NCBI GenBank assembly: GCA_026419785.1
Contig: JAODTK010001288.1
Span: 62,001 to 126,000, forward strand
Direction: 5' to 3'
Length of the DNA: 64,000 nt
Origin: Sclerodactyla briareus
Lineage: Eukaryota > Echinodermata > Holothuroidea > Dendrochirotida > Sclerodactylidae
The notes under the pieces are model-generated. The model saw only the letters and a list, made by a program, of their open reading frames with translations, ran no database searches and was not told the origin of the DNA. The position numbers and the translations under genes were made by a program. Below, piece after piece: positions 3,848 to 64,000 of this stretch (the first letter of the stretch is position 1; the number at the start of each line of letters is the position of its first letter).

Positions 3848-5108
3848 ATGCTAGCATGTAACTGAAGATGTTACGAGAACTAGAAGAAGTGTTCTGTTCG
3901 GTTGTCTTTAAGTGACACTAAACATCTCCAGGCCAAATTCAACAAGCTCTATATGCTTACCGTCATGAAGTTGTTTTTTTAAATCTAACTGAAGTTTGAG
4001 TCAGGACTTTTGTGCTTATAACCAAATGCTCGACCTAATTCGGCAGTGGGGCGGAATGTTGCGGGCACGCTCCGGAATTTTATCACGGATTATAAAACAT
4101 TCGAACAGGAACCCAACATTTCTCAGATTGATAGCCCTGGACTGATGGTGAGCACAGTCGTCCAATTTGTTAGCCAGGCTATCACCCTATAGAATGTCAT
4201 CCTGAGTGTTTGCCAAACCTTAACAGACCTATCTCGTTAGGTGGATGTTTCACTTATAGACTAAACCTTCCCCATATTTCCTTATACATGGGATAATTCT
4301 TGCTTCGTTACGAAGCGAGATGTGAACAAATACAGTTCCTTCTCTGGCAGTCTAGAAATCATATATCTGTTACGTGCACGCTTCCATTAGGGCCCACCAC
4401 GATCATGATCATAATTCACCCCCGATTTTAACGCTGGGTGGTCAACAGCGTTCTCTCACGAGACAAATTAAGTATAACTTATCATTCCGCTAATGATCAC
4501 GCTTTCACGATACAGAACATGATAACAGCGATAACTTGTCCAATGTAACGCCGCGCAAAATATGTTACGAATGTTACGTAAGGTGTAAATTCCTGGAAGC
4601 GTGCCTACAGCTACGAACAGACAAATCTTTCATGTTGAGTTACTGTTAAAGGACTACGCATGAGATATAATTTGACTGAGTTCAGTACAGTGTAACAGCG
4701 GTTCCCACAATATCGAGGGTTTTTGAACCTGCAAATTTTCGAATCATGAAATAAGAACGCAGAATCACATCACCTAGTTGATTAAGAAAAGATTGAACAC
4801 ATATCACGTATGCGGGAATCCGACTTTCGATGTGGGTCAGTATTTGATAACACGTTGCCTTCAAGTATAGCACATTTACCAGGGCTCCCGATTGGCGATA
4901 CTGAACTGGGAATGTATGTACATTTTGCGATAGACTCAATAGCACGATTCGTGGCGGGGGCGCATGTCCATGATGTAAGAAGTGAGGCACGTACATATGT
5001 ATAGTATAATTATAGCACGATCATCCCGAATACCACATCGTTCGATGCGATGTCGTGAAATGATGGAACAAGGCCTGTTGCTCTATTACGAATGGGCAAT
5101 TTACTCCT
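3848..5108. other. Intergenic sequence without recognisable genes
   Basis: No protein, RNA or transposon motif was recognised. Two overlapping open frames on opposite strands (4682-4996 minus, 104 codons; 4810-5004 plus) show no known domain and look like chance. Confidence 0.4.
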
Positions 5109-5275: not shown

Positions 5276-8200
5276 GCATTCCTCAACATCATTTTTTCCG
5301 TTGAGGACAATTCGCAATACATTTAACACATTCCACGCATACGGATTGCAAGTGACGCTTACTTTGGTGTTGTCAATTAGTAATATAACTCTCAAATGAT
5401 TGTCAGTTTAATTAATATGAAACCGCTTTCAAGTCGATGGCCCTGTTCTGATATGAGGTAAGCTCTCAGTCATTTATTCAACAACACGCGTTCAGCAAGG
5501 CAGATAAATCCGCAGGCGTATGCTATTGTGGTGAAAATATTGATTATCATCAAGTCACATATTTATACGACCCAAAATGCAATCAACCTCATAATCACCT
5601 ATTGATTTTCACGAAATTGTGTCGGCCGATGCCGTGCAACTCCTAAGCACGAGAATGGCATTTGTTTAGTGTTCGCTGGCATGCAGTAACGACTATTACA
5701 TTGACCGTTCCATCGGTTTACTAGTTCAGCTAAGCTAAGGTAAACAAACGTCTGCACTCATTTCATTTCGTTGAAGACTAGAGAAGGGAGAGCATTGATG
5801 GCCGCTCACTTCTCCACGTACACGGCCAATGTGACAGCCAAAACCTCATATCCCGCAAGAATGTGTCCGGGAAATCGCCCTCTGGTCAGCTCGTTATTTG
5901 TTTGTACCGGACTGTGGTACAATTTATTTGCTGACTGCACCCGCAGAGGTTCTCCTGTCGTGTGTGAAGGCTGGCCTGTGGTCTAGCAGAGGAATATGAT
6001 GTAAGATTGACGAGGGAGAGGTAAATGCTGCGCTCTATGAACAATTGCTCCCCTATGGCTGACCAACAACCTCTCCCCTACCTTTCCGAGATAATCTCAA
6101 CAAAGAAGACGAGAACCAATTCCATCCAGAACGAGGAGTCCGACCAGAGAACTGGGGTTTCTTCTATAGAATCCATTTGAAATTGACCAGAACCCGATGC
6201 CCCCGTTGCGCGAAGAGAACGATTTCATTTTGACTGGACGTTAATGCGGCTTCATAAAATACCATATTGAGGCCCGCGTATTAATGTGTGACTTCGGCAA
6301 GGGCAACCATGCATGAAATATCCATCGCACAATTAAACATCTGCCCTTGAGGGGGTTTTCTTTTGCTACCGAGTTAGTGTTTTGGCAATACTGCATTGTG
6401 GTCTTCGCAAATGTTGCGAAATGTGATTACGTAAGAACAATCTCAAACTAACTAAAATCGGACAATTGCCCTCCATCAGCCCATAAGGGATTACAACCAA
6501 CGTGAAATACAGCCAAAAGCACATACGTTAGTAGAATTCCCACTATTCGGTGAGCTAAATTGGGTTATTGTTTGCCCGTGGTAACACAACTCAATCAGGC
6601 ATATGAACCCTCTGTTTCTGCTTCACCAGAGGAAAATTTATATAAACGATGTTATCTCGAATTTGAAAAGCTTCCAAAGACAGCTGTTTTGAGAGGATAG
6701 GTTGGGGACCCCGGTATTCTGTTTCATCATCGTTCTGAGTATTCACCTGCAGCAGGGCTGCATAGAAAACCGGGGCACCTATTGCGAGTGCTCTCCCCCA
6801 CTTCAACCAACAAGCGCAAGTCGAAACGTCTGGATCAAAGAGCGGACGGCAAAATGTGGCGAATACACTGCATGCTCTTCACCAATCCACATTTATATTG
6901 TTCACATCTATTGACCTTTAATGGCATTGTCATTAATATTGGAAGGTTGGAACATGTCTTACCACATTAGCCTAATTTTGCTATCAGTGCCCAGCACAAA
7001 GAACCCAACCAAATCATTCCCAAGGCCTGTAGGCAGTGAAAGAGTGGTGGAAACACATGGATCCACAATGGGAAAGTTCCACCCAGGCAACCTACATATG
7101 AGAACCAGGTCGATGACAGGACTTCCACAAACCTGCCTGTATTTCCATTGCTGCATTCATTCTACCTCAATGCTGACAGACGAATTAAACGGTCCCCCGT
7201 CTACCTGCTGCCCGCTCGGCAGCTCGAGGCAATGTAAACAAACTTATCCACAGGAAGATCAAGGGAAGGGCTGTGGGTAATTATTTGGATTTTATCAAAA
7301 TTCCCCAATATGCAACAAAAATGTAACTCAGCCCTAGCGTGGCATGCTCAGCCACCACCAAGTTTCAACTGATCGCATGTTGGTGTAATTTAGAGTTATG
7401 AGTGAACTGACGAAACGAGCGGAAAGAACGAACGAACTAACGGAACGAACGAACGAACGGACGGTGGGAAAGAAATGATGAACTTATAGAGGCTGATCAC
7501 CCGAGCAGCTGAAAAATAAGAAGAAAAAAAAACAGGATAGATGCTCAAATATAGGCTTCGATTGTCTGGAACAAAAGACATATCAGTGCTCATGGTCAGT
7601 GCAGTACATTTCCGTCGTTTTGCTGAACCAAGGGTCAGGAAGCGTCTAGCGATCAATTCGTTGTGGTTGTTGTTGTGTGCTCGCGCGCGAGTAGGTGTGC
7701 GGATATGTGAGTGTTGTATATGTAATACGCTTGCTTATTAGCAGGATCTCTATGATGAAAACCGTAAGAAACGATTTGTTGTGTGCATGGGGTATTGGAG
7801 TTGCTGTGGAGTGAACCTGATTATGATTAGATTAGCTTTTTTCTGTATCTTCCTGTTTTGAGACTCGTGGCGAAGATAGATAACAGACAAACTGTAGAAA
7901 ACTGTCATGATGAAGTTTGGTCACATGGGCTTATAGGATAATAGGCAAGGGATAGACTGGTTCCATTTTCAGAATAAAATATGATTAATAAGTAGCTAAT
8001 TACATAATTTTACATTCATAGTCAATGTGCACTCAATTGTCGAATTCGCATGATTCTTTTTTTTTTTTTTTATGCAAATTTTATTGCATAACAATTCAAC
8101 GTCTATGTTTACGTAATCCCATCCAGTCTCCTGACGCTCTCGCGAAAACCGTCCAAATCAGCAAGACTATGGGGACCACTTTAGGGGGTTGAACCAATTA

Positions 8201-21555: not shown

Positions 21556-22110
21556 CGAACTTGGCACACATGTCCGCCTAGTGAAATCTCAGATGAGTTC
21601 GAAAGTGGGTGTCGCCACATGAACGGGGTCCGCTACTTTGCATAATTTCCACGATTGAAGATTTTCCCGTTAGCGCAATACTCTTTAACGCTTATCCGAT
21701 CGATCTGAACCTTAGTACACTTGTCCGCCTAGTGGAATCTCGGATGAGTTCGGAATGGGAATCGCGTTGTCACACTGCTGGGGGCCGCTAATTTGCATAA
21801 TTTTCTGCGAAAATTTCAAGGTAGTCGGATTAGAACGAATCTTGGTGGGTAGGGATTATAGTAGATCCCGAAAATGTGGCGGTCATTCAAGGGTCATCAA
21901 GGTCAAAATTGTGAAATTTATGCGATTTCCAAACTTTGTAAGAATTTGAACGAAACTGGTGGGAATGAACTATAGTTGAATCCGAAAAATGTGGAGGTCA
22001 TTTCAAGGTCATCGGAGGTCAAACTTGCAAAATTTATGCGATTTTCCAAACTTTTTCAGATTTGACGAAATTGGTGGATGGGGGCTACATTTGTTCCTCC
22101 CTAAGTTAGA
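21556..22110. repeat. Two adjoining divergent tandem arrays (~152 bp and ~115 bp periods)
   Basis: The first unit contains (A/T)CACATGTCCGCCTAGTG, AATCTC(A/G)GATGAGTTCG and TTTGCATAATTT, seen at 21564 and 21716 (period about 152 bp). The second unit contains GAA(A/T)CTTGGTGG, TCCGAAAAATGTGG.GGTCATT, GGTCAAA.TTG and AAATTTATGCGATTTCCAAAC, seen near 21837, 21952 and 22067 (period about 115 bp). One copy has AGGTCA three times at 21995-22021, spaced 5 and 4 bp. A less similar copy may extend to about 22260. Confidence 0.7.
21995..22021 (+). promoter_or_regulatory. AGGTCA direct repeats, spacers 5 and 4 (DR5/DR4-like)
   Basis: AGGTCA lies at 21995-22000, 22006-22011 and 22016-22021. The consensus half-site of many nuclear receptors is AGGTCA, and DR4/DR5 spacing is used by RXR partners (thyroid-hormone or liver-X type for DR4, retinoic-acid receptor for DR5). 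Whether this repeat is ever bound is unknown. Confidence 0.4.
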
Positions 22111-27404: not shown

Positions 27405-29018
27405 TGTTCTCCTGAATGCTCAGTCAGCCCGTAATAAGGTCACCACTCTCTCGTAGCATTTGATCGATCAGCAGTTTGACATTGCCTCCCTCACTGAAAC
27501 GTGGCTCAAGCTCAGCGGATGTTTACATCTTAAGGGAACTTTGTCCGGAAGGCTATTCCTCCAAGCATGCTCCAAGGAGTCAGAAACGAGATGGTGGTTG
27601 CCGTTATTCATCGCTCCTCGCTGGATTTCCGAGCTTACGACCACCAATGTCAATTATCGACATTCGAATGCAAGGTGTTGACGTTATCCCAACCCGTACA
27701 AGATCACGTTGCGGTGACTACCGTCCGCCGAAAGCGGGACCTGTCATCGAAACACTTCCAGCAGAATTCGAGCTGCTGGTATCCGAGTTGGAGGGTCGAC
27801 CGGGCTGAATGCTTCTGTGTGGCGATTCCAATATACACTGGATGACAACAGCTCCCCGGGTGTTACTCAGTTTGTCGAGACACTCGAATCCCACGACCTG
27901 CATAAGGCCGTCAGTGGTAGCACACACAGAAGTGGCCATACTCTCGATCTTGTGATTTCCTAGACCACGTGAATTCATCATCAACACCAATGGTTTTGGA
28001 TCCCGCTATCGCTGACCACAGCACCATCGTATTCGAATTGCTGTCAGAGAAACCCGAGCGGAAATTGCATTATCGCGTGGTCGCGACTATCGAAGCCTGG
28101 ACGAAGGGTTGTTCCATTCAACACTGCAGCGTCGATTTGAATCATTGGATATCCGATTTAAATCACTGGATGAGGTTGCCTGTGAGTATGACGGTTTTAC
28201 GCCACGGTCTGGACATTTATGCCCGACTTGCGAACAATCACTCGCTACCATGGATGAATGATGACATCAAACAGCTGAGACGCGAACGTCGCGCGTTGGA
28301 GAGTGTCGAACTTCACGTCTATCGGGAAAGTATGAGCAGAAGAGACGTGTCAATGGCACTCATCTTGGCTGCTAAACGACAAATTTCGAGCACAAATTGT
28401 CTTCTTCTCACCAGAAGTCAACCTGTACTATCCTCAACGACCTGATGAGGGATGACGAACAGTCTGTTCCATTGGTGAGCGACACATCGGACTCCGAGGC
28501 ATTCTCCTAGTTCTTCATTGAAAAAGTAGAAACCTTCCTTGCGGAAATTCGATCCTGTGATGTGCAGCGCGACCATCTAGAGTACCATGCGTCACCAGAG
28601 TATCAGCACATCCTTTCTGAGCTCGCTCCTATCTTCGTCGATGAGCTGGAAAAGCGGTGGTATTTTCATCCCCAACGGAAGCTTGCATACTGGATATCAT
28701 CCCAACATGGCTACTAAAAAAGACATTGGTCACTCACAGCAATTGCGAACCTGTCATTTTCCAGTTTGACGATGCTCTTAGCTGCTTAGTACCCCTTCTC
28801 AAGAAGCCATCCTCGATCCTTCGGTACGGTGCAATAACCGCCCGATTTCGAATTTAGCTTCCTCGGAAGGTCCTGGAGGGTTCGTCGTGAGGAGGTTGGG
28901 ATCTCACATCAGCCCCACGTCAACAATCTGAATGAGAAGTTCCAATCGGCGTACAAATTGCAACATCCACAGGAACCGCACTTATCAGGATACAGAACGC
29001 CTTATCGTGCAGGCTCAG

Positions 29019-29100
<82 letters not shown>

Positions 29101-30338
29101 GGAAACGGCTGCCCCGTTGATGCTTTTGATACTTTCAGCCACGTCAAGTTGCTGGAGACTCTCCACTCCATTGGAATAACTGGAAAAGCACTTGAATGGT
29201 TTGCCTCGTACCCTGATGATCGGCAGCAACGTGTCTCAGTCAATGGAACACTATCCAATCGCCGCCGTGTTCCTCATGGCGTACCCCAAGGTGCTGTTCT
29301 TGGACCGGTTCTGTTCGCGATCTACACACGACCTCTGCAGTCCATCATCGGGTGTCATGGCCTATCCTACCACCGATATGCCGACGATGTACAGCTGAAT
29401 GCAGAGTATATCCATCCGACCCATTGAGCTGTCAGGCGGTAGTTGACAAAGTGCGAACCGTCATCACAGACAACTGTCATCACAACTGACAACCATCTCA
29501 AACTCAACAGTGGTAAAACCGAATTACTCAATGTCCTTTCCCCTCGTCACCTGTTACATCACGGTCGTCTATTACTGAATATTAATGGATTTTGTATCAG
29601 ACCATCACAAGTGTGGTCAGATGCTTGAAGTTATCCTCGATGAACATCTCTCCATGACCCAGCAGATTACAAGTGTCGTCCAGCAGTCTTGCAACTACGC
29701 AATATCTCCGCAATATCGGCAGGGTGCGAAAGTACCTGACCACGGAAACATGCAAGACTGCAGTCCAGAGTCTTGTTGTATCTCGAATGGATTACTGTTG
29801 TAGCTTACTGGACTGTAGCCCCCCCGGCCCAACCAATTCGGAGGCTCCAAGTGATACAAAATAGAGCTGCCAAAATAGAGCTATTATTACAAGGGTGAGT
29901 CTACAAGATCATAACTCACCCATTCTGGCAGGTCTGAACAGAATCCCATGTGACGACAGGGTCAAGTTCCGGTTTACTGACGCATGTCTACAAGTATCTA
30001 CACCAATCGTCACCGATCTACCTCAAAGACCTGATCGCCATCTACCAACCGCGTCGATCACTCCGGTCATCCGCGCATAAGTATGTTTCTCGTGCGAGAC
30101 CAATCCCGAAAGAGAATCGGGACCATGCTTTCACTCTATTGCTCCTGAGCTGCGGAACAAACTGCCATCAAATATCCGACATGCGTATATTCTGCTCGTA
30201 CATTCAAGTCTTTGTTAAAGACAGATTTTTTCGAGAAGTTTAGGGTGACTATTGTTGATTTTGTCGTTTTCGTTCAGCGCATTGAGCTCCGGGATTGTGC
30301 GCTTTATAAGTACCAGTGTAATAATAATAATAATAATG
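27405..30338 (+). mobile_element. Decayed L2-like non-LTR retrotransposon, split by poly-A
   Basis: The element begins in the endonuclease with VLLNAQSARNKVTTLS (27405-27453), QQFDIASLTETWLK (27472-27513), then CPEGYSSKHAPRSQ and VAVIHRSSLDFRAYD in shifted frames, LLCGDSNIHW (27810) and STPMVLDPAIADHSTIVFEL (27980-28040). The RT has QSAYKLQH (28948), an 80-nt poly-A, then LLETLHSIGITGKALEWFAS, GVPQGAVLGPVLF (29278-29316) and YHRYADDVQL with YADD at 29377-29388. The C-terminus includes YKYLHQSSPIYLKDLI and RSLRSSAHKY. The 3' end GGGATTGTGCGCTTTATAAG followed by (ATA)n to 30338 is an L2-type tail. Frameshifts are frequent. Confidence 0.85.
29019..29098 (+). repeat. 80-nt poly-A run inside the RT coding region
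   Basis: Eighty uninterrupted A separate the QSAYK...ALIVQAQ side of the RT from the FDT...HVKLLETLHS side (motif A). Only about 10-15 codons of the expected protein are missing across it, so it sits almost precisely where a short coding stretch should be. It could be a poly-A tail left by an insertion whose body was lost, an expansion, or an assembly artefact. Confidence 0.9.
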
Positions 30339-41889: not shown

Positions 41890-42197
41890 AGGACCAGTAC
41901 AACCTTAACTACCCAAAACATCACTCTCCAAACTGCAGCTGCAGAACTGGCACCAGTATTAACTTACAACTTCCAACAGAGTTGGATAGGAGTGACTCCT
42001 GAAGATTGGAGAACCGCAAACGTATGTCCCATTTTTTAGCGGGTGCTAAATCAGACCCAAGCAACTACAGACCAATCTCCTTGACGTGTGTTAGCTGTAA
42101 GATCATGGAACACAAAGTTGACAGCCAACTGATGAAGCACGTGAGCGGAACATAACATTCTATCGAGACGCACAAGCAGTCAGGAACAGAAGCCAAA
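41890..42197 (+). pseudogene. RT fragment A (left part of an RT split by an insertion)
   Basis: The plus strand reads TPEDWRTANVCPIF and, after a shift, GAKSDPSNYRPISLTCVSCK followed by IMEHKVDSQLMKH. These are the W..A.V.PIFK.G...P.NYRPISLT....K..E blocks at the start of a CR1/Jockey-like RT domain. The next expected motif, QHGFR, is degraded around 42160-42190 (NILSRR is still readable; AGGAACAGAAG could be its RNR). RT homology then stops abruptly. It resumes at 44345 on the same strand with the next motif in order. Confidence 0.75.
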
Positions 42198-42339
42198 AGG
42201 ATTAGTGATTCCGTACTCTTTATGCCAACCTATAGCCGGGACACAAAGGACAAATGGAAGATGGTTACCAGCTATTATGGAAATCATCGTCTGACAAATT
42301 TCACAATTTTCCCCAACCAACCAATATGGTTACTATACT

Positions 42340-43145
42340 CTGTTAAGATGGCTACACACTAATTTCAAGGATTTCGAACTTGGCCTATGGTACCTCAAAA
42401 CAATAGGGTCATGTTATTCATGACCTCTAACTTGACCCTAAAATGATAGGGTTGATGTACTCATCTGGGGAACACACAAGTATGAGCGTCATCCATTCCA
42501 GGTGGGGGTCAGAGTTTCTCGGTTCAACAAAAGCAAAATTGGCCAATTAATTGACTTTTCATCACCAATTCTCTATTTTGAACCAAAATTCAAACCGCCC
42601 GACCTTAAAATACCGAAAACAAGAGGGTTCTGTACTCCCCATAAGAAGCTACCACCAAATTGAACCCATCAGATCACCATTCTGACTTATCTTGTCTCAC
42701 CACACAAGGTTTTCATACTTTGAGACCTCTGTGACCTCAAATGACCTCTGCCTGACCCCAACAGGAGCTCATGTACTCTCATGGGAACCCATATACCGAT
42801 TATGAGCTTTCATACATCCAGTTGGGGTCGAGTTAATCGTGTGCACAAGCCACAATTGGCCAAATGATTGATTTTTCAAAATTTTCTATTTTCGCGCCCC
42901 CAATTTACCCCCGACCTATACACCAAAAACAATAGGGTACCTGTACCCCCATAAGAATCTACACACAAATTTTGAACCTGATCAGACCAACGCAGTCTGG
43001 ACTTATCGTGTTCACCGGTTTTCAGAACTTTGACCTCTGGTGACCTCAGATGACCTTCTGCCTTACGCCAAAACATAGGGTCATGTACTCATCATGGGAC
43101 ACACACCTAACCATTAACTGGGCTTCATCCATCCAGGTGGGGTCG
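42340..43145 (-). repeat. ~300-bp tandem units carrying AGGTCA direct repeats (copy 1 array)
   Basis: On the plus strand each unit reads ACCCC(A).AGG.TCATGTACTCAT, CATCCA..CAGGTGGGGTC, GTGTTCACAAG, AATTGGCCAA, TCTATTTT, CCCCGACC..A, AAACAATAGGG, CCCCATAAGAA(G/T)CTAC, CAAATT.GAACC, TGACCT repeats. TGACCT occurs three times with 4-bp spacers at 43031-43056 and twice with a 4-bp spacer at 42732-42747. This is the reverse complement of the unit at 61.6-63.9 kb. Confidence 0.8.
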
Positions 43146-43189
43146 ATTTAATGTGTTCACAAGCCCAGGCGTTACAGCCATACATACAC

Positions 43190-43245
43190 ATACGCACACA
43201 CACACCCACACCCCACACACTCCTACACACATCCACACACACTGG
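43190..43245. repeat. (CA)n-rich microsatellite
   Basis: ACACACACACCCACACC and related CA-rich sequence forms part of the terminal region of the satellite-bearing element; the 61.39-kb copy has the matching GT-rich tract. Confidence 0.9.
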
Positions 43246-43254
43246 CATGACTGC

Positions 43255-44305
43255 ATGGGCGTCACAGGGGGGGACGGGGGGACCCTGTCCCCCCCCCCAC
43301 TTTCAAAAGTGGGGGGGTAATCATAATCGTTTGCCCCCCCCCCCACTTTTCCGGACCGTATAAAAAATAATAGGCACATGCCCGATTTCTTATCACTCTA
43401 ACTGATTCAATTTTTGTCTACCAAATCATAATCGCGTTGGAAATGTTCTTAAGGTCCCCTAATTCCAGGTGAGGACCCCAAGTGGAGATCTGGACCCGAC
43501 AGGGCCGAAGTCGCAGGATTACCACCCATGTTTCATACCGGTTCTCGAATTTTAAAATCAAATAGCCACAGTTGCCATAATATTCAAGTGTTTCCGCGAA
43601 CCAGCGTTTTTTTTTTTTTTTCAAAGGCGTTGTAGCTAAATATTCGATGTAATGTTTCGAATCATTTTGTTCACCCGAATTTAATTTCAGAAGCCTTGCG
43701 GGGATAACCCCCCCCCCCCTCGGCCACCATTTTTCTGAGATGAATAATTCCGGGCGATGAATTCTGGAAAAATTTGAGGGAAAAAGGCAATGAAAAAAAT
43801 GCCTTAATTTTTGCAGATATTTCATAAAATCCCGCCCGGAGAACATGTAAATTTTTTTCTGCGCCGCACCCCCCGCGTCGCTCGCGCCGGTAGTTTTCCT
43901 CTCCGATGAACGAATTGTACAATTCCGGGGGTACATTTTTCTGCTCCCAAATGGAGTAGTCCGTACTCCTAGCTTTCCCCCTTCGATTCCCACCAGGGAC
44001 CGTTCGGTAGAAAAACCCTGGAATCCCCCGTAAACAAAGCCAGTAAAAGGTAATGAAAAATGCCATGTGTTATATTCCGGTAAATCATCTTATAGCCCAA
44101 GACACTTTTTTTGTCTGTCTTTAACGTCAATCCACACATTGATGGTGCTATTGAGCCTGGCAAGTGCCGTTCCTTCCTTCGATCTGGGAGGGTTGAAAAT
44201 TTGAATTCTCTTGGTAACGCTTCGCGCCAACCGTGGTGCGCTCGCTATTGGTGATTTGCCTTCGACTGTGCCCCCCCCCCCACTTTTCAAACCTCCGACG
44301 CCCTT
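43255..44305. mobile_element. Non-autonomous DNA transposon with perfect 9-bp target duplication
   Basis: The left end reads ATGGGCGTCACAGG and the reverse complement of the right end reads AAGGGCGTCGGAGG. Both ends carry subterminal poly-C/CACTTTT motifs (left CCCCACTTTCAAAAGTGGGG, right CCCCCCACTTTTCAAACC). The 9-mer CATGACTGC directly flanks the element at 43246-43254 and 44306-44314. At 61.38 kb the empty equivalent has a single AGCAGTCCATGACAGTG, which confirms the boundary. A 9-bp duplication is usual for Mutator-like elements. The longest internal frame (43418-43993, minus, 191 codons) has no transposase motif I can see; frames include a poly-K run from a T homopolymer. Confidence 0.8.
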
Positions 44306-44344
44306 CATGACTGCTTAGATTCCTCCGCTCACGTCACGGAATCA

Positions 44345-45620
44345 AAAATCGATCGGGCGGAACCAACTCATCAGCACCTTCCATGATCAACGACGAACTA
44401 CATAAACGAATGCCAAATGTGAACCCAGTAGACCTAGCTATTCTTGATTTCAGTAGAGGCATTTGTTCCGCACTGCGTCTACACTGAAACTAGACTCGTA
44501 TGGCATACTCAAGCAAACCCTTGCATGACCGAATCAAGTTTCCTTTTCTCATAAACCGCCTCAGACAGTAATCGTGAACGGAAAATCTCGACATCGTGGA
44601 GCCCGGTTCTCAGCGGCGTTCCACAAAGCCTTGAGTCAGGACTCTCATTTTTGTTCATCCTATTTTGAAATGACATTGCCGCCTGTGTCAACACAAAAAT
44701 CTCAACTTGAACTATTCCTGATGAATTGCATTGTCTACAAATCCATCACCTCCTTTACCTGATGAAGAAGCCCAGCTCCGGAATATATAACAACCTCACA
44801 ACTGGTAAAAAAAAACGACAACCCTGAAAGGCTGATTACACCATGCTTGGACAGGACCTGGAAGAGGTGAAAGAAGACAAAGTACCTAGGGGTGACTACA
44901 AAAACAACTTGAAATGGGACAAACAAACCAAACACGCCGCGTCAAAGGCCACGAGTATTGAATTTAACCCAGAGGAAATCGGCCGTTGCTCACGGAAAGT
45001 GAAAGAAAACCTCTATGTGACACTTGTCCAACCACACTTGAATATGCGTCCCCAAGCATGAACCCTCGTACAACAAAAACCAACCGAGACACCCTACAGA
45101 AAGTCCAGCGGCGTGCTGTGAGATTCGTTAGTGGCAACTCGATACACATTCATCTGTTACGAATATTGGCCAACTTGAACGGGAAACGGTTGAGGAGAGA
45201 CGAACAGAATCGAAGGATAGCAATGTTCCCTAATATTATCAATAAAGAGGCTACATCGACCCGGATAGATACACTAAACCAAGATGATCCAGAACTAGAC
45301 GTCCAATTCTCGACAATTTGAGGTCTCCCGGCCATCATTCGTCTCCACCCAACACCAGTCTACCACGGTCATTTTCATCGAATTCAGTTACCTCCGGGAA
45401 TGCACTTCCAGAAGACATCGAATGTCTATAGAGACCGACTCATGGACCTGCGACCAACTACATATGACGAATCAACTGAAAAGCCTTATCTCTCGCCCAG
45501 AAGTCAAGCCTCCAGTTATATCCCTAGCAGAACTTTTCGGAGGTGAAACTACAAGGACAAGGATGATGGCCGGCTTCAAAGTTATTGAGCGCAAAATCCC
45601 GAGGTTCATGGCCTAGTTCT
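44345..45620 (+). pseudogene. RT fragment B (right part of the same RT)
   Basis: RT homology resumes with NQLISTFHD (44352-44380), then NPVDLAILDFSRG (44425-44460, motif A), PQTVIVNGKS in shifted frames (44561-44585), the SGVPQ block (about 44606-44625), NDIAACVNTK (44672-44700) and NCIVYKSITS. The C-terminal part has LYVTLVQPHLNMR, then LQKVQRRAVRFVSG (45095-45137) and RLRRDEQNRRIAMF, typical of the RT thumb (Y.TLVRPHLEYA..VW, L..VQRRA.RFV). The catalytic ADD box is not intact. The tail ends near 45620. Confidence 0.75.
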
Positions 45621-57539: not shown

Positions 57540-59570
57540 ATAGCGGGCCCCTTGAAACTCTGTACAGTGTAAGCAAGTTTATTGCCAGCTGAAATCTGTG
57601 ACGTGGAGGCCGGGCTTTCATTGCAGATTGAACTCTGTACATTGTAGAGTAGGTTTTATTGTTGGCCTTGAGCTCCGTACAGTGTTGAGGAGGTTATTGA
57701 TACAGTGAACGGCAGGCGTCATTGCGGCCGGAATTGAACTATGTACAGTTTGTGAGGCAGGTTTTTACGCAGCCTTGATTCTGCTACGGGTGAGGAGGGC
57801 TTCATTGCCAAGCATGACTCGGTACCTTGGTAAGTATGTGTATTGTTGCCTTGAACTCCATACAGGTGAGGCAGGTTATCTGTACAGTGAACAGCAGCTC
57901 AATACGCCGTGAATCTGTACATGTAGGCAGGTTCTACTGCAAGCTTTGAATTCTGTACGTGGTGAGGCGGGCTTTCCTCGCACATTGAACTCTGTCCATT
58001 GGTCGAGTATATGTTATATTGTTGCCTTGAACTGCCGTCCAGTGTGAGGCAGGTTTATCTGTACAGTGAACGGCAGGCTTCATTGCGCCGTTACTGCTGT
58101 ACCGTTGTGAGCCGGTTCTACTGCAGCTTTGAATTCTGTAACGTGTGAGGCGGGCTTCATTGCAGCATCGAACTCTGTACATTGTAGAGTAGTTTTATTG
58201 TTGCCTTTTTGGGAACCTGTACATGTGAGCAGGTTATCTGTACATTGAACGGCAGGCTCATTGCGGCCGTAACTCTGTACAGTGTGAGGCAGGAATTTCC
58301 AACTGCAGCTTTGAATTCAGTACGTGTGAGGGCGTGCTTTCTTGGCAGCTATGAACTTCTGTACGTTTGTGGAGTAGGTTTATGTTAGCATAGATAGTAA
58401 TAGATTACTTTATTGAATCCACAAGGATTACAACTGCCTTGTAAATAAAAAGTGAAGAATGATAAGGGTACAAACATTAAGACGCCTTGGAACTCAGACA
58501 GTGTGAGGCAGGTTTCATTGCAAAAGCCTTGAACTCTGTAACGGTGTGAGGCCAGGTTCTACTGCGGCTTTGAATTTTGTACGTGTGAGGCGGGGGGCTT
58601 CATTGCAGCATTGAACTCTGGTAGGCTTGTAGAGGTAGTTTTATTGTTGCCTTGCACTCAGACAGTGTGAGGCAGGTTTATCTGTACAGTGAACAGCAGG
58701 CTTCAATTACGGCGGTGAACTCTGTACAGTGTGAGGCAGGTTCTACTGCAGCTTTGAATTCTGTACGGTTGTTGAGGCGGGCTTCATCGCCAGCATGAAC
58801 TCTGTACATTGTAGAGTAGGTTTTATTGTTGCCTTGAACTCCGTTTACAGTGTGCGGCAGGTTATCTGTACAGTGAACGGCAGGCGTCATTGCGGCCGTT
58901 GAACCTGATACAGTGTGAGGCAGGTTGACTTGCAGCTTTGGAATTCTGTACGGGTGAGGCGGGGCGTCATTGCAGCATTGAACTCTGTACATTGTAGAGT
59001 AGGTTTTATTGTTTCCTTAACTCTGTACAGTGTGATGGCAGGGTTATCTGCACAGTGAACGGAGGCTCATTGCGGGCCGTTGCAACTCTGTACAGTGGAG
59101 GCAGGTTATAAGGCCGCCTTTGAATTCTGTACGTGTTGAGGCGGGCTTCATGGCAGCTATGAACTCTGTACATTGTGTGGCAGTAGGTTTTATGTTAGAG
59201 AGATAGAAAAGAGATTACTTTATTGAATCCAGCAAGGGGAATTACATGCTGTAGAATAAAAAAGGTAAGAAGATAAGGGGATACAAAACATTTTAAGACG
59301 CCGTGAACTGCGTACAGGTGGAGGGCAGTTCATTGCAGCCTGAACTCTGTACGGGTGAGGCAGGTTCTACTGCGGCTTTGAATTTTGTACGTGTGAGCGG
59401 GCTTCATTGCAGCGAGTAACGCTGTACATTGTATAGTGGGGGTACATTGTCTCCTTGAACTCTGTACCGTGTGAGGCAGGTTTCATTGTGGCTTAGGAAT
59501 CCAGACAGTGTACGGCAAGTTTCATTTGCAGCCTTGAACTCTATACAGTGTGAGTCAGGCGCCACTTGTT
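57540..59570. repeat. Three-tier satellite array (~45 bp, ~180 bp, ~815 bp)
   Basis: The smallest unit is about 40-45 bp and ends GAACTCTGTACA(G/T)TGT.(G)AG.(C)AGGTT. Variants alternate in fixed order: CTACTGCAGCTTTGAATTCT, TTCATTGCAGCATTGAACTC, TTATTGTTGCCTTGAACTC, TTATCTGTACAGTGAACGGC (short), TTCATTGCGGCCGTTGAACT, giving a ~180-bp unit. The marker TATCTGTACAGTGAACGGC recurs near 57690, 57875, 58051, 58228, 58678, 58866 and 59043. A ~100-bp foreign block (ATTACTTTATTGAATCCA) lies inside at 58385-58485 and again at 59200-59300, so the whole arrangement repeats with a ~815-bp period. No coding potential. Confidence 0.85.
58385..59305. repeat. Duplicated ~100-bp block embedded in the satellite
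   Basis: Both copies read GATTACTTTATTGAATCCA, GG(G)ATTACA, a region of AAAAAG(T/G)(G/T)AAGAA, GATAAGGG, TACAAA.CATT and AAGACGCC. The first is at about 58385-58485 and the second at about 59198-59303. The TTTATTGAATCCACA motif resembles a truncated 3' end of an interspersed element. It probably inserted once and was then copied with the satellite. Confidence 0.75.
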
Positions 59571-61240: not shown

Positions 61241-61559
61241 TAATCCTCCAGAGAATGGGGGGGGGCACATGTCCTACAAAAATGAGACAGGTAGGCTATT
61301 GTCTAATTCTGTGCCTGGGGCGGTTTCCAAAATACAAAAATACCCTCCATTTTGTGATTCCTTGATGAATCAGAGGTCTAGCAGTCCATGACAGTGTTGT
61401 GTGTGTATGGGTGTGGGTGTGGGTGTGTGACGCCGGCTTGTAAACACTTAACCCAAAAACAAGTAGGATCCTTTGCTCCCCTCCCCCATTGGCCACAATA
61501 TCGACTTTTTTTGGCTGTAACAACGAATAACCGACCCCCCTGGAATGGATGGAAGCTCA

Positions 61560-63860
61560 TACTTGACATATGTGGTGTTCCCATGATGAGTACATGGACC
61601 CTATTTGCTTTTGGAGTCAGGTCAGAGGTCCTCTGAGGTACAGGAGGGTCAAAGTCTGAAAACTTGTAAACACGATAAGTCCAGATGGTTGGTCTGATCA
61701 GGTTGAAAATTTTGGTGTGTCAGCTTTCTTATGGGGAGCACAGGAACTTTATCGTTTTTTATCGTCGGGGTGACTTTGGGTCGAAAATAGAAAAATTAAA
61801 AGTCTCCATTTTGGCCAATTTTGGCCTGTAAAACGATAACTCTATCTCGACCCCGCCTGTATGAATGAAGCTCAACTCGATATGTTGTTTCCCCATGATG
61901 ATTACATGGTACCCTATTGTTTTCGAGTTAGGTCGGGGTTCACAAGAGGTCAAAGGTCTGAAAACCTTTTAAAAACATGATAAGGTCCAGAATTGGTTTG
62001 GTAATGATCGGTTGATTGAAATTTGGTGGGTAGGTTTATTATGGGGAGCACAGGAACCCTATTGTTTTTGGTATAGTCGTGGTAAATTTTTGGTCGAAAA
62101 CGAGAAAATTGGTGAAAGTCTAACATTTTGGGCATTTTGGCCTTGTAAACAATAACTCGACCCCGCCTGATGGATGAAGCTCATACGTGATATGTTTTTT
62201 CCCCCATGAAGGATTTACATGGACCCATTGTTTTGGAGTTAGGTCAGAGGTCACCCGAGTCAAAGTCTTGAAAAAACCTTTTAACATGATAAGTAACCAG
62301 AATGGTTGGGGATCTTATGGCGGGTTGAAATTTGGTGTGTAGCTTTCTTATGGGAACAACAGGAAACCCTATCGTTTTTGTATTGGTCGGGGGGTGAATT
62401 TTGGTCAAAAATAGAAAATTGTGAAAAGCAATATTTTGGCCATTTTGGCTTGCTTGTGAACACGATACTCGACCCCGCGCTGGATGGATTAAGCTCATAT
62501 TTGGTATGTGTGTTCTCCATGATGATACATGAACCCTATCGTTTTGGGGTCAGGTTCAGAGAGGTCTCCAGGGTCCAATCTGGAAAACCGTGCAAACACA
62601 TAAGTCCAGAATGGTTGATCTATCAGGTTGAAATTTGGTGTGTAGCTTTCTATGGAGCGCACAGAACCCTATTGTTTTTGGTATAGTCGGGGTGGATTTT
62701 GGTCAAAAATGAGAAAATTGTGAAGTCGATATTTCGGCCAATTTGGGCTTGTAAACAACAATAACTCGAGACCCTGCCTGGATGGATGAAGCTCATACTT
62801 TGATTGTTTGTTCCCCATGATAGTACATGGACCCTATTGCTTTGGATCAGGTCATAGTCATCTCTGAGGTACCAGAAGGTCAAGTCTGAACCTTGTAAAA
62901 CATAAGTCCAAATGGTTGGTCTGATCAGTTGAAATTGGTGTGTAGCTTTCTTATGGGGAGCCAGGAACCCTATTGTTTTTTGGTATAGGGGGTCGGGGTG
63001 AGGTTTGGTCAATATAAAATTGTGTAAAGTCAAAATTGGACCAATTTTGGCCTTGTAAATCACCATAACTCGCCCCGGCCTGGATGGATGAAGCTTAAAC
63101 TTTGGATCTTGTTCTTCATGATGAGTACAGATTCCTTGTTTGGGGGTCTAGGTCATTTGAGGTCAAACGAGGTCACCAGAGGTTCAAAGTCTCAAACCTT
63201 GTAAACACACGTAAGTCCAGAATGGTTGGTCTGATCAGTGTTGAAATTTGGGTGTTTAGTTTTTTAATGGGGAGCCACAGGAACCCGATTGTTTTTGGTA
63301 GAGGTCGGGGGATTTTGGGTGTAACATAGAAAATTATTGAAATTCAATATTTTGTGAAAATTTTATATTCGGACTTGTGAACATGATAAACCGACCCCGC
63401 CTGGATGGATGAAGCTCCTACTTAGTATGTGTGTTCCCACATGATGAGTAAAAAAAAAAAAAAAAAAAAAAGAGGGAATTACACTCATTGTTCTGGAGTC
63501 AGTCAGAGGTCATCTGAGGTCACCAGAGGTCAAAGTCTGAAAACTTGAAACACGATAGTGTCCGAATGGGTTGGTTCTGTTCGAGGTTTGAAATTTGGTG
63601 TGTAGCTTTCTTATGGGAAGCACATGAGCCTATTGTTTTTGTATAGTTCGGGGTTGAATTTTGGTCAAAAATAGAAAATTTGTTAAAATTCTATTTTGGC
63701 TTTTTTTGGCTTATCCCTGCATGATGGGATGTGTGTTCCCCACGATGAGTACATGACCCCCATCGTTTTGGGGTCAGGTCAGATGTCATCTGAAGTCGCC
63801 ATAGGTCAAAGTCCTGAAATTCGTGAAATTAGTGTGTAGCATTCTTATCAAGAGCATAGG
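61560..63860 (+). repeat. ~300-bp tandem units carrying AGGTCA direct repeats (copy 2 array)
   Basis: Units share GTGTAGCTTTCTTATGGGGA, GCACAGGAACCCTATTGTTT, GGTCAAAAATAGAAAATTG, TGGCCAATTTTGG, CGACCCCGCCTGGATGGATG, CCCCATGATGAGTACATGG and AGGTCA..TGAGGTCACCAGA. The GTGTAGCTTTCTTATGG landmark recurs near 61717, 62032, 62336, 62640, 62940, 63250, 63600 and 63833 (mostly 300-315 bp apart). AGGTCA occurs three times with 4-bp spacers at 63507-63532. One unit contains a 22-nt poly-A at 63450-63471. Copies differ mainly by single-base indels. Confidence 0.85.
63507..63532 (+). promoter_or_regulatory. Triple AGGTCA with 4-bp spacers (DR4-DR4)
   Basis: AGGTCA at 63507-63512, 63517-63522 and 63527-63532, spacers TCTG and CCAG. 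The same arrangement on the opposite strand is at 43031-43056 (TGACCT, spacers CTGG and CAGA). It is a fixed part of the ~300-bp unit. Function not shown by sequence alone. Confidence 0.45.
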
Positions 63861-64000
63861 AACCCTTTGGTTGGTTGGGATTAACGGGAAATTTGTCAGT
63901 TGTCATGTTGCCCATAATGAGCTGTGCAATCTCCATTTTGTTTCGTGTCGAGCTGTAGGTTGTCAAAAGATCAAGTAATCACTACGGCCTTTTGGCTTTC

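Follow-up and report, generated by a model that had tools for sequence, protein, structure and literature searches.

HINEs, the non-autonomous Helentrons of the rolling-circle class, are defined by subterminal inverted repeats (subTIRs), an inverted repeat, a microsatellite, a palindrome and a T-rich target, as set out in the structural descriptions of two studies (PMC4067079, PMC7492417). Compared by described architecture, the closest known relatives of the element analysed here are Cg_HINE of oyster, DINE-1 and Pearl. PMC7492417 describes Pearl/CvE of oyster, MgE of mussel and DTC84 of Donax as likewise non-autonomous, built on a comparable plan and with satellite-like repeats at their centre. 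We analysed a 64,000-nucleotide stretch of the genome of Sclerodactyla briareus (the window), in which an initial annotation had noted two copies, in opposite orientation, of a mobile element of unrecognised family that carries a variable satellite array between conserved ends. The anatomy of the ends and two natural empty sites argue that both copies very probably belong to one family of HINEs.

Both annotated elements are real, but their limits had to be redrawn, to 42185-44348 on the minus strand and 61351-64005 on the plus strand (Table 1). The right end had been placed 7 bases short; homology in other copies extends past GGCTT to ...GGCTTTCTGGTT. Both ends are common to the two copies, as had been claimed, but the extent of sharing differs from that proposed, alignment of copy 1 with copy 2 giving about 230-250 bp on the right and, on the left, about 55 bp together with a GT-rich patch. 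BLAST of the window with the end consensuses (E up to 1) placed the left end of copy 2 at 61351-61405 and that of copy 1 at 44348-44306, the inner part of the latter lying at 43256-43234, and the right ends at 63952-64000 and 42237-42190, respectively. The remaining matches of the end consensuses were stray ones of 12-15 bases, and searching the window for the end and unit consensuses revealed no third copy. The annotated count of about three units against eight was a fair one, BLAST in the window giving about 2.3 for copy 1 (unit matches at 43146-42836, 42832-42534 and 42507-42420) and about 7.3 for copy 2. The length of copy 1 exceeds what its array accounts for, owing to an unrelated 1.05-kb nested insertion in its left end that the initial annotation had overlooked. 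The insertion has imperfect inverted GGGCGTC termini and long G/C runs; it had no second match in the window or in the family loci then compared, and its longest open frame had no Pfam match. Rfam and tRNA searches of the window gave no matches.

Table 1. Positions, within the window, of the two elements, their parts and the interrupted host gene
Feature	Position	Strand	Remarks
Host LINE RT gene, upstream part, SNYRPISLTCV... stretch	42003..42184	+	broken in A run (T run in element orientation)
Copy 1, same element as copy 2	42185..44348	-	interrupted by nested insertion; from end alignment and BLAST
Copy 1 3′ palindrome, AATCC-TTTT-GGCTT on minus strand	42190..42203	-	
Copy 1 right subTIR	42206..42217	-	decayed, GGAATCA retained
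Copy 1 central array	42420..43146	-	2 full units + 1 partial
Copy 1 GT microsatellite	43180..43243	-	CA-rich on + strand
Unrelated 1051-bp insertion in copy 1 left end	43255..44305		9-bp direct repeats CATGACTGC at 43246-43254 and 44306-44314
Copy 1 left subTIR TGATTCCGTGAC	44333..44344	-	complementary inverted repeat GGAATC at 44318-44323
Host RT gene, downstream part, frameshifted	44349..45321	+	first ~130 bases match paralogs; rest RT by eye from translation
Copy 2, HINE-type element (probable)	61351..64000	+	true right end 64005, 5 bp past window
Copy 2 left subTIR TGATTCCTTGAT	61355..61366	+	consensus TGATTCCTTGAC; then decayed inverted repeat, about 61367-61379
Copy 2 GT/GGTGT microsatellite	61393..61429	+	
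Copy 2 central array	61532..63872	+	~7.3 units of ~309 bp
Copy 2 right subTIR ATCAAGTAATCA	63970..63981	+	consensus GTCAAGGAATCA
Copy 2 3′ palindrome CGGCC-TTTT-GGCTT	63985..63998	+	consensus AAGCC-TTTT-GGCTT

Searching the whole assembly (319 Mb, 3171 contigs) for further copies with short motifs, at up to three mismatches and without indels, yielded 469 occurrences of a left-end 37-mer, 803 of a right-end 35-mer and 745 of a unit 35-mer, against none for each reversed control; coming from different motifs with no indels allowed, these figures are not comparable as copy numbers. The two elements are members of a family of many hundred copies that carries a short, variable, satellite-like array. 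Scored for 40 of 2789 candidates, the repeat unit itself proved dispersed, with at least 106 matches on 37 contigs. We fetched 38 loci by unit match, two by Rep match and six by the presence of both ends. By BLAST cut-offs, none of the 38 unit-selected loci lacks an element end, and 28 contain both; some further arrays or fragments in these loci have no end in the stretch read, such as the one at 5645-6981 of locus L011, which reaches the stretch edge. This gave 37 two-ended elements: 29 from 28 of the unit-selected loci (L009 being copy 2), copy 1, one in L032, which adjoins a Rep fragment, and the six end-selected ones, all of which, picked via both ends in the pattern lists, carry arrays. 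Homology in the elements read stops at both termini, and copies lie on many contigs, so that neither finding named in the initial annotation as refuting it, homology that passes these termini or copies confined to a single local array, was obtained. Its further suggestion, that the element is a route for seeding satellites, goes beyond this evidence, since each of the 38 unit-selected loci has at least one end and long arrays free of ends were not encountered among them. In public collections, from which near-identical genome records may be absent, the exact unit motif had no match in IMG/VR and the right-end motif had none in IMG/VR or in GTDB genomes. A full-text literature search with the letters of the subTIRs and palindrome returned no transposon paper, to judge by titles and the opening lines of abstracts.

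The ends were set side by side (19 right and 14 left, copy 1 included). On the left, a T-run is followed by TGATTCCTTGAC, GAA, GTCAgAGGAATC, TATGCAGTCATG and a GT microsatellite; on the right, GTCAAGGAATCA is followed by CT, the palindrome AAGCC-TTTT-GGCTT and TCTGGTT, so that the 3′ terminus reads ...TTTCTGGTT. The short inverted similarity that had been noticed near both ends proved to be a 12-bp subTIR, TGATTCCTTGAC/GTCAAGGAATCA, which is decayed in both window copies and forms a perfect inverted match in the consensus, within the 11-15 bp known for HINEs. The right subTIR stands 23 bp from the element end. Three further HINE features are present: the inverted repeat GTCAgAGGAATC lies 3 bp past the left subTIR (3-22 bp in HINEs), a GT/GTAT microsatellite occurs in the aligned left ends, and the palindrome follows the right subTIR, 7 bp from the end.

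Individual copies were scored for 30 of the 37 elements (copy 1, L023, L028, L035, L042, L045 and L050 omitted). Both subTIRs are exact in six of the 30; the GGAATC inverted repeat is present in 18, the left end is GT-rich by a GT/TG cut-off in 16, GCC and GGC of the palindrome are retained in 22, and TTT stands at the 5′ end in 25. Left and right subTIRs pair with scores of 4-12 versus 3-7 when shuffled, and mean folding energies were -5.0 versus -2.1 kcal/mol for left ends and -3.2 versus -0.7 kcal/mol for right ends, with one shuffle per copy. For the consensus, the left hairpin, in which the subTIR pairs with its own inverted repeat, folds at -7.6 kcal/mol (z -3.72). Taken alone, the right palindrome is not exceptional (z -1.47; 17 of 200 shuffles fold equally well). 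End signals thus exceed shuffles and the testable structural features of HINEs are present in the consensus, yet many single copies are decayed.

Two loci have unusual ends. At L027:5290-6001 a diverged left end, TCAATCCTTGACAAAGTCAGAGGAATC, is followed by different repeated units; this may represent an older subfamily that carries something else, and hints that the family ends occur without this array. At L019:4084-4207 (minus strand) a unit fragment is accompanied by a pair of right ends, both diverged, which occupy 4084-4126 and 4175-4207. Tandem 3′ ends are a known by-product of rolling-circle transposition.

The annotated position of copy 1 inside an RT gene is borne out both by its flanks and by uninterrupted paralogs. 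The joined flanks match nine other genomic places, every one of which continues through the junction, and in the eight of these paralogs that were fetched the site is an unbroken A run (a T run in element orientation). Against RVT_1, the 50-residue host stretch scores 16.2 bits, below the cut-off of 29.6, and the paralog composite 35.6; the frame at 44968-45318, in the downstream RT part, had no Pfam match. AACAG-A-CGATCG, considered as the target of copy 1, was rejected: paralogs place the site elsewhere, the guess being wrong because of the shortened right end. Empty sites had been proposed as a check in the initial annotation, and a second one was found in locus L011, where one copy interrupts the array of a second at the oligo-T of one of the array's units; the joined flanks of the inserted copy align as a single unit except for the number of Ts. 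At both empty sites the target is T-rich and neither duplication nor loss of target is visible within the uncertainty of T-run length, as in HINEs; one or a few Ts may have been duplicated. Bases past the T-run show mild A+T richness only. With termini fixed, copies dispersed and both empty sites bracketing end, array and end, the earlier proposal that the array is mobile as a unit between conserved ends holds. Elsewhere in the window, a run of 80 A (29019-29098) falls midway through an open frame matching RVT_1 (28936-29424), and is either an assembly artefact or the remnant of an insertion.

Among the genome's profile matches (the C3088 region left out), no autonomous Helentron was found between family ends, so the partner with the same ends that the initial annotation had suggested looking for did not emerge; the oyster HINE study likewise reports no autonomous partner (PMC7492417). 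Matches to Helitron_like_N (PF14214) occur on two contigs only of the 319-Mb genome, and PIF1 (PF05970) matches at one place, with two internal stops. The Rep fragment of contig C2413, located at L032:4198-4986, is an open frame of 263 aa with a match to Helitron_like_N; it has no second genome match and lies about 1.4 kb upstream of the neighbouring family member, outside the element. No family ends were present in the 9.9 kb examined around the Rep match of contig C2926.

An alternative is a MITE or foldback element, that is, a DNA transposon with internal tandem repeats moved by a DDE transposase, the class in which Pearl was originally described. Short inverted repeats near both ends, an internal array and the fact that no coding capacity was seen would all suit such an element. 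However, the inverted repeats are subterminal, the right one standing 23 bp inside the end, the left end alone forms a hairpin, and neither of the two insertions for which an empty site is available shows a visible target duplication. A TIR MITE, with terminal inverted repeats and target duplication, was accordingly rejected, and we consider it highly improbable that the family is a MITE or foldback element.

Canonical Helitrons begin with 5′ TC, end with 3′ CTRR and insert between A and T. The rolling-circle-like character of the family, its 3′ hairpin, the lack of visible target duplication and the existence of Helitron_like_N remnants in the genome would agree with this class, but the termini contradict it: ...TTTCTGGTT is not CTRR, the 5′ T-run is not TC, T-runs occupy both empty sites, and subTIRs are present. 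The chance that the family consists of canonical Helitrons is therefore slimmer still, and assignment to HINEs is retained.

The array has the same orientation in all 37 two-ended elements. Delimited by BLAST segmentation, these contain 152 units, with 0.93 to 11.1 unit equivalents per element (median 3.4), and element length follows 358 + 310n (r 0.995; nested insert of copy 1 subtracted). The unit of about 309 bp is a dimer whose diverged halves, of about 146 and 163 bp, align over 98 columns with a score of 41, a value that none of 300 shuffles approached more closely than 28; in L064 the array proceeds in single-monomer steps of 145 bp. Among the 152 units, mean identity is 0.916 between neighbours in an element, 0.910 for other pairs within an element and 0.879 between elements, all values being lowered because the assembly is rich in indels, as seen from LINE paralogs that change frame. 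For 72 of 146 units the nearest unit lies in the same element, compared with a mean of 5.0 (maximum 13) in 200 label shuffles; the other 74 have their nearest unit in a different element, as expected from common descent. First units are as similar to the first units of other elements (0.869) as to their last units (0.868). Arrays thus travel with the ends and also seem to turn over inside copies, the latter being drawn from units most like those of their own element.

That the family could instead be a non-mobile satellite, dispersed by segmental duplication or recombination and with satellite edges as its shared ends, would accord with dispersed arrays and with own-array nearest units (72/146) but is contradicted by the empty sites, where an RT gene and the array of another copy were each cleanly interrupted, as well as by fixed non-repeat ends flanking 37 elements and by 250-bp flanks of 28 elements which, compared with the fetched loci, share unit sequence and a few dispersed repeats among the matches listed, leaving it next to no probability.

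Two other tandem arrays were observed in the window. At 21828-22077 a 115-bp repeat contains GGTCA motifs as in the element unit, with weak similarity to the unit (~30 bp). At 57590-59193 two arrays with periods of about 183 bp and about 39 bp adjoin each other and contain a TGAACTCTGTACAGTGTGAGGCAGG-like motif.

For the HINE family we infer the following course of events. The left end, with its T-run, subTIR, hairpin-forming inverted repeat and GT microsatellite, would be recognised in trans by the Rep/helicase/endonuclease of a Helentron, and the right end, with its subTIR, short palindrome and ...TTTCTGGTT, by the same enzyme. The interior dimeric array would be copied along with the ends as a single strand, in rolling-circle fashion, and this strand would enter an oligo-T run without target duplication. 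Unit number would change in individual copies by unequal exchange or slippage. More tentatively, the element might be a satellite nursery, in which the dimeric unit is amplified and homogenised in single copies during or after insertion; hundreds of sites would then hold independently evolving arrays bounded by the same transposition signals, any of which could expand into a classical satellite. The observations behind this reading are the excess of nearest units within the same element, the lack of a closer match between first units of different elements, and the single-monomer steps. With both ends, the unit numbers and two natural empty sites documented, the family illustrates clearly how satellite-like arrays are dispersed as the cargo of a probable rolling-circle element. 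Given an improved assembly, one could test whether the length of the array is altered in the course of transposition or only later, and whether such cargo has given rise to free satellites.

Comparison with the structural descriptions of its relatives places this well-marked family within a known kind of element, not in a new one. In Cg_HINE of Crassostrea gigas (PMC7492417), as here, a left module of subTIR, inverted repeat and microsatellite is separated by a short satellite-like array from a right module of about 60 bp with subTIR and palindrome; the array has fixed orientation, and insertion is into oligo-T, without target site duplication and with no autonomous partner reported. Compared by description, its monomers average 140-180 bp, unlike the ~309-bp dimer found here. 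The Pearl repeats described in the same study measure about 160 bp and number up to six, whereas the dimeric units here number up to about 11. HINE-Mo of a mite and DINE-1 of Drosophila (PMC4067079) are described as having subTIRs of 12-15 bp, a microsatellite, optional central repeats and a 3′ palindrome, again as here; a difference is that the present genome yielded no autonomous Helentron sharing the ends of the family. Distances at the right end also differ: in the mite HINEs the subTIR lies about 38-60 bp and the palindrome 8-35 bp from the end (PMC4067079), both farther than here. In its inverted repeat near the left subTIR the family resembles DINE-1, and with both HINE-Mo and DINE-1 it shares a T-rich target without target modification (PMC4067079).
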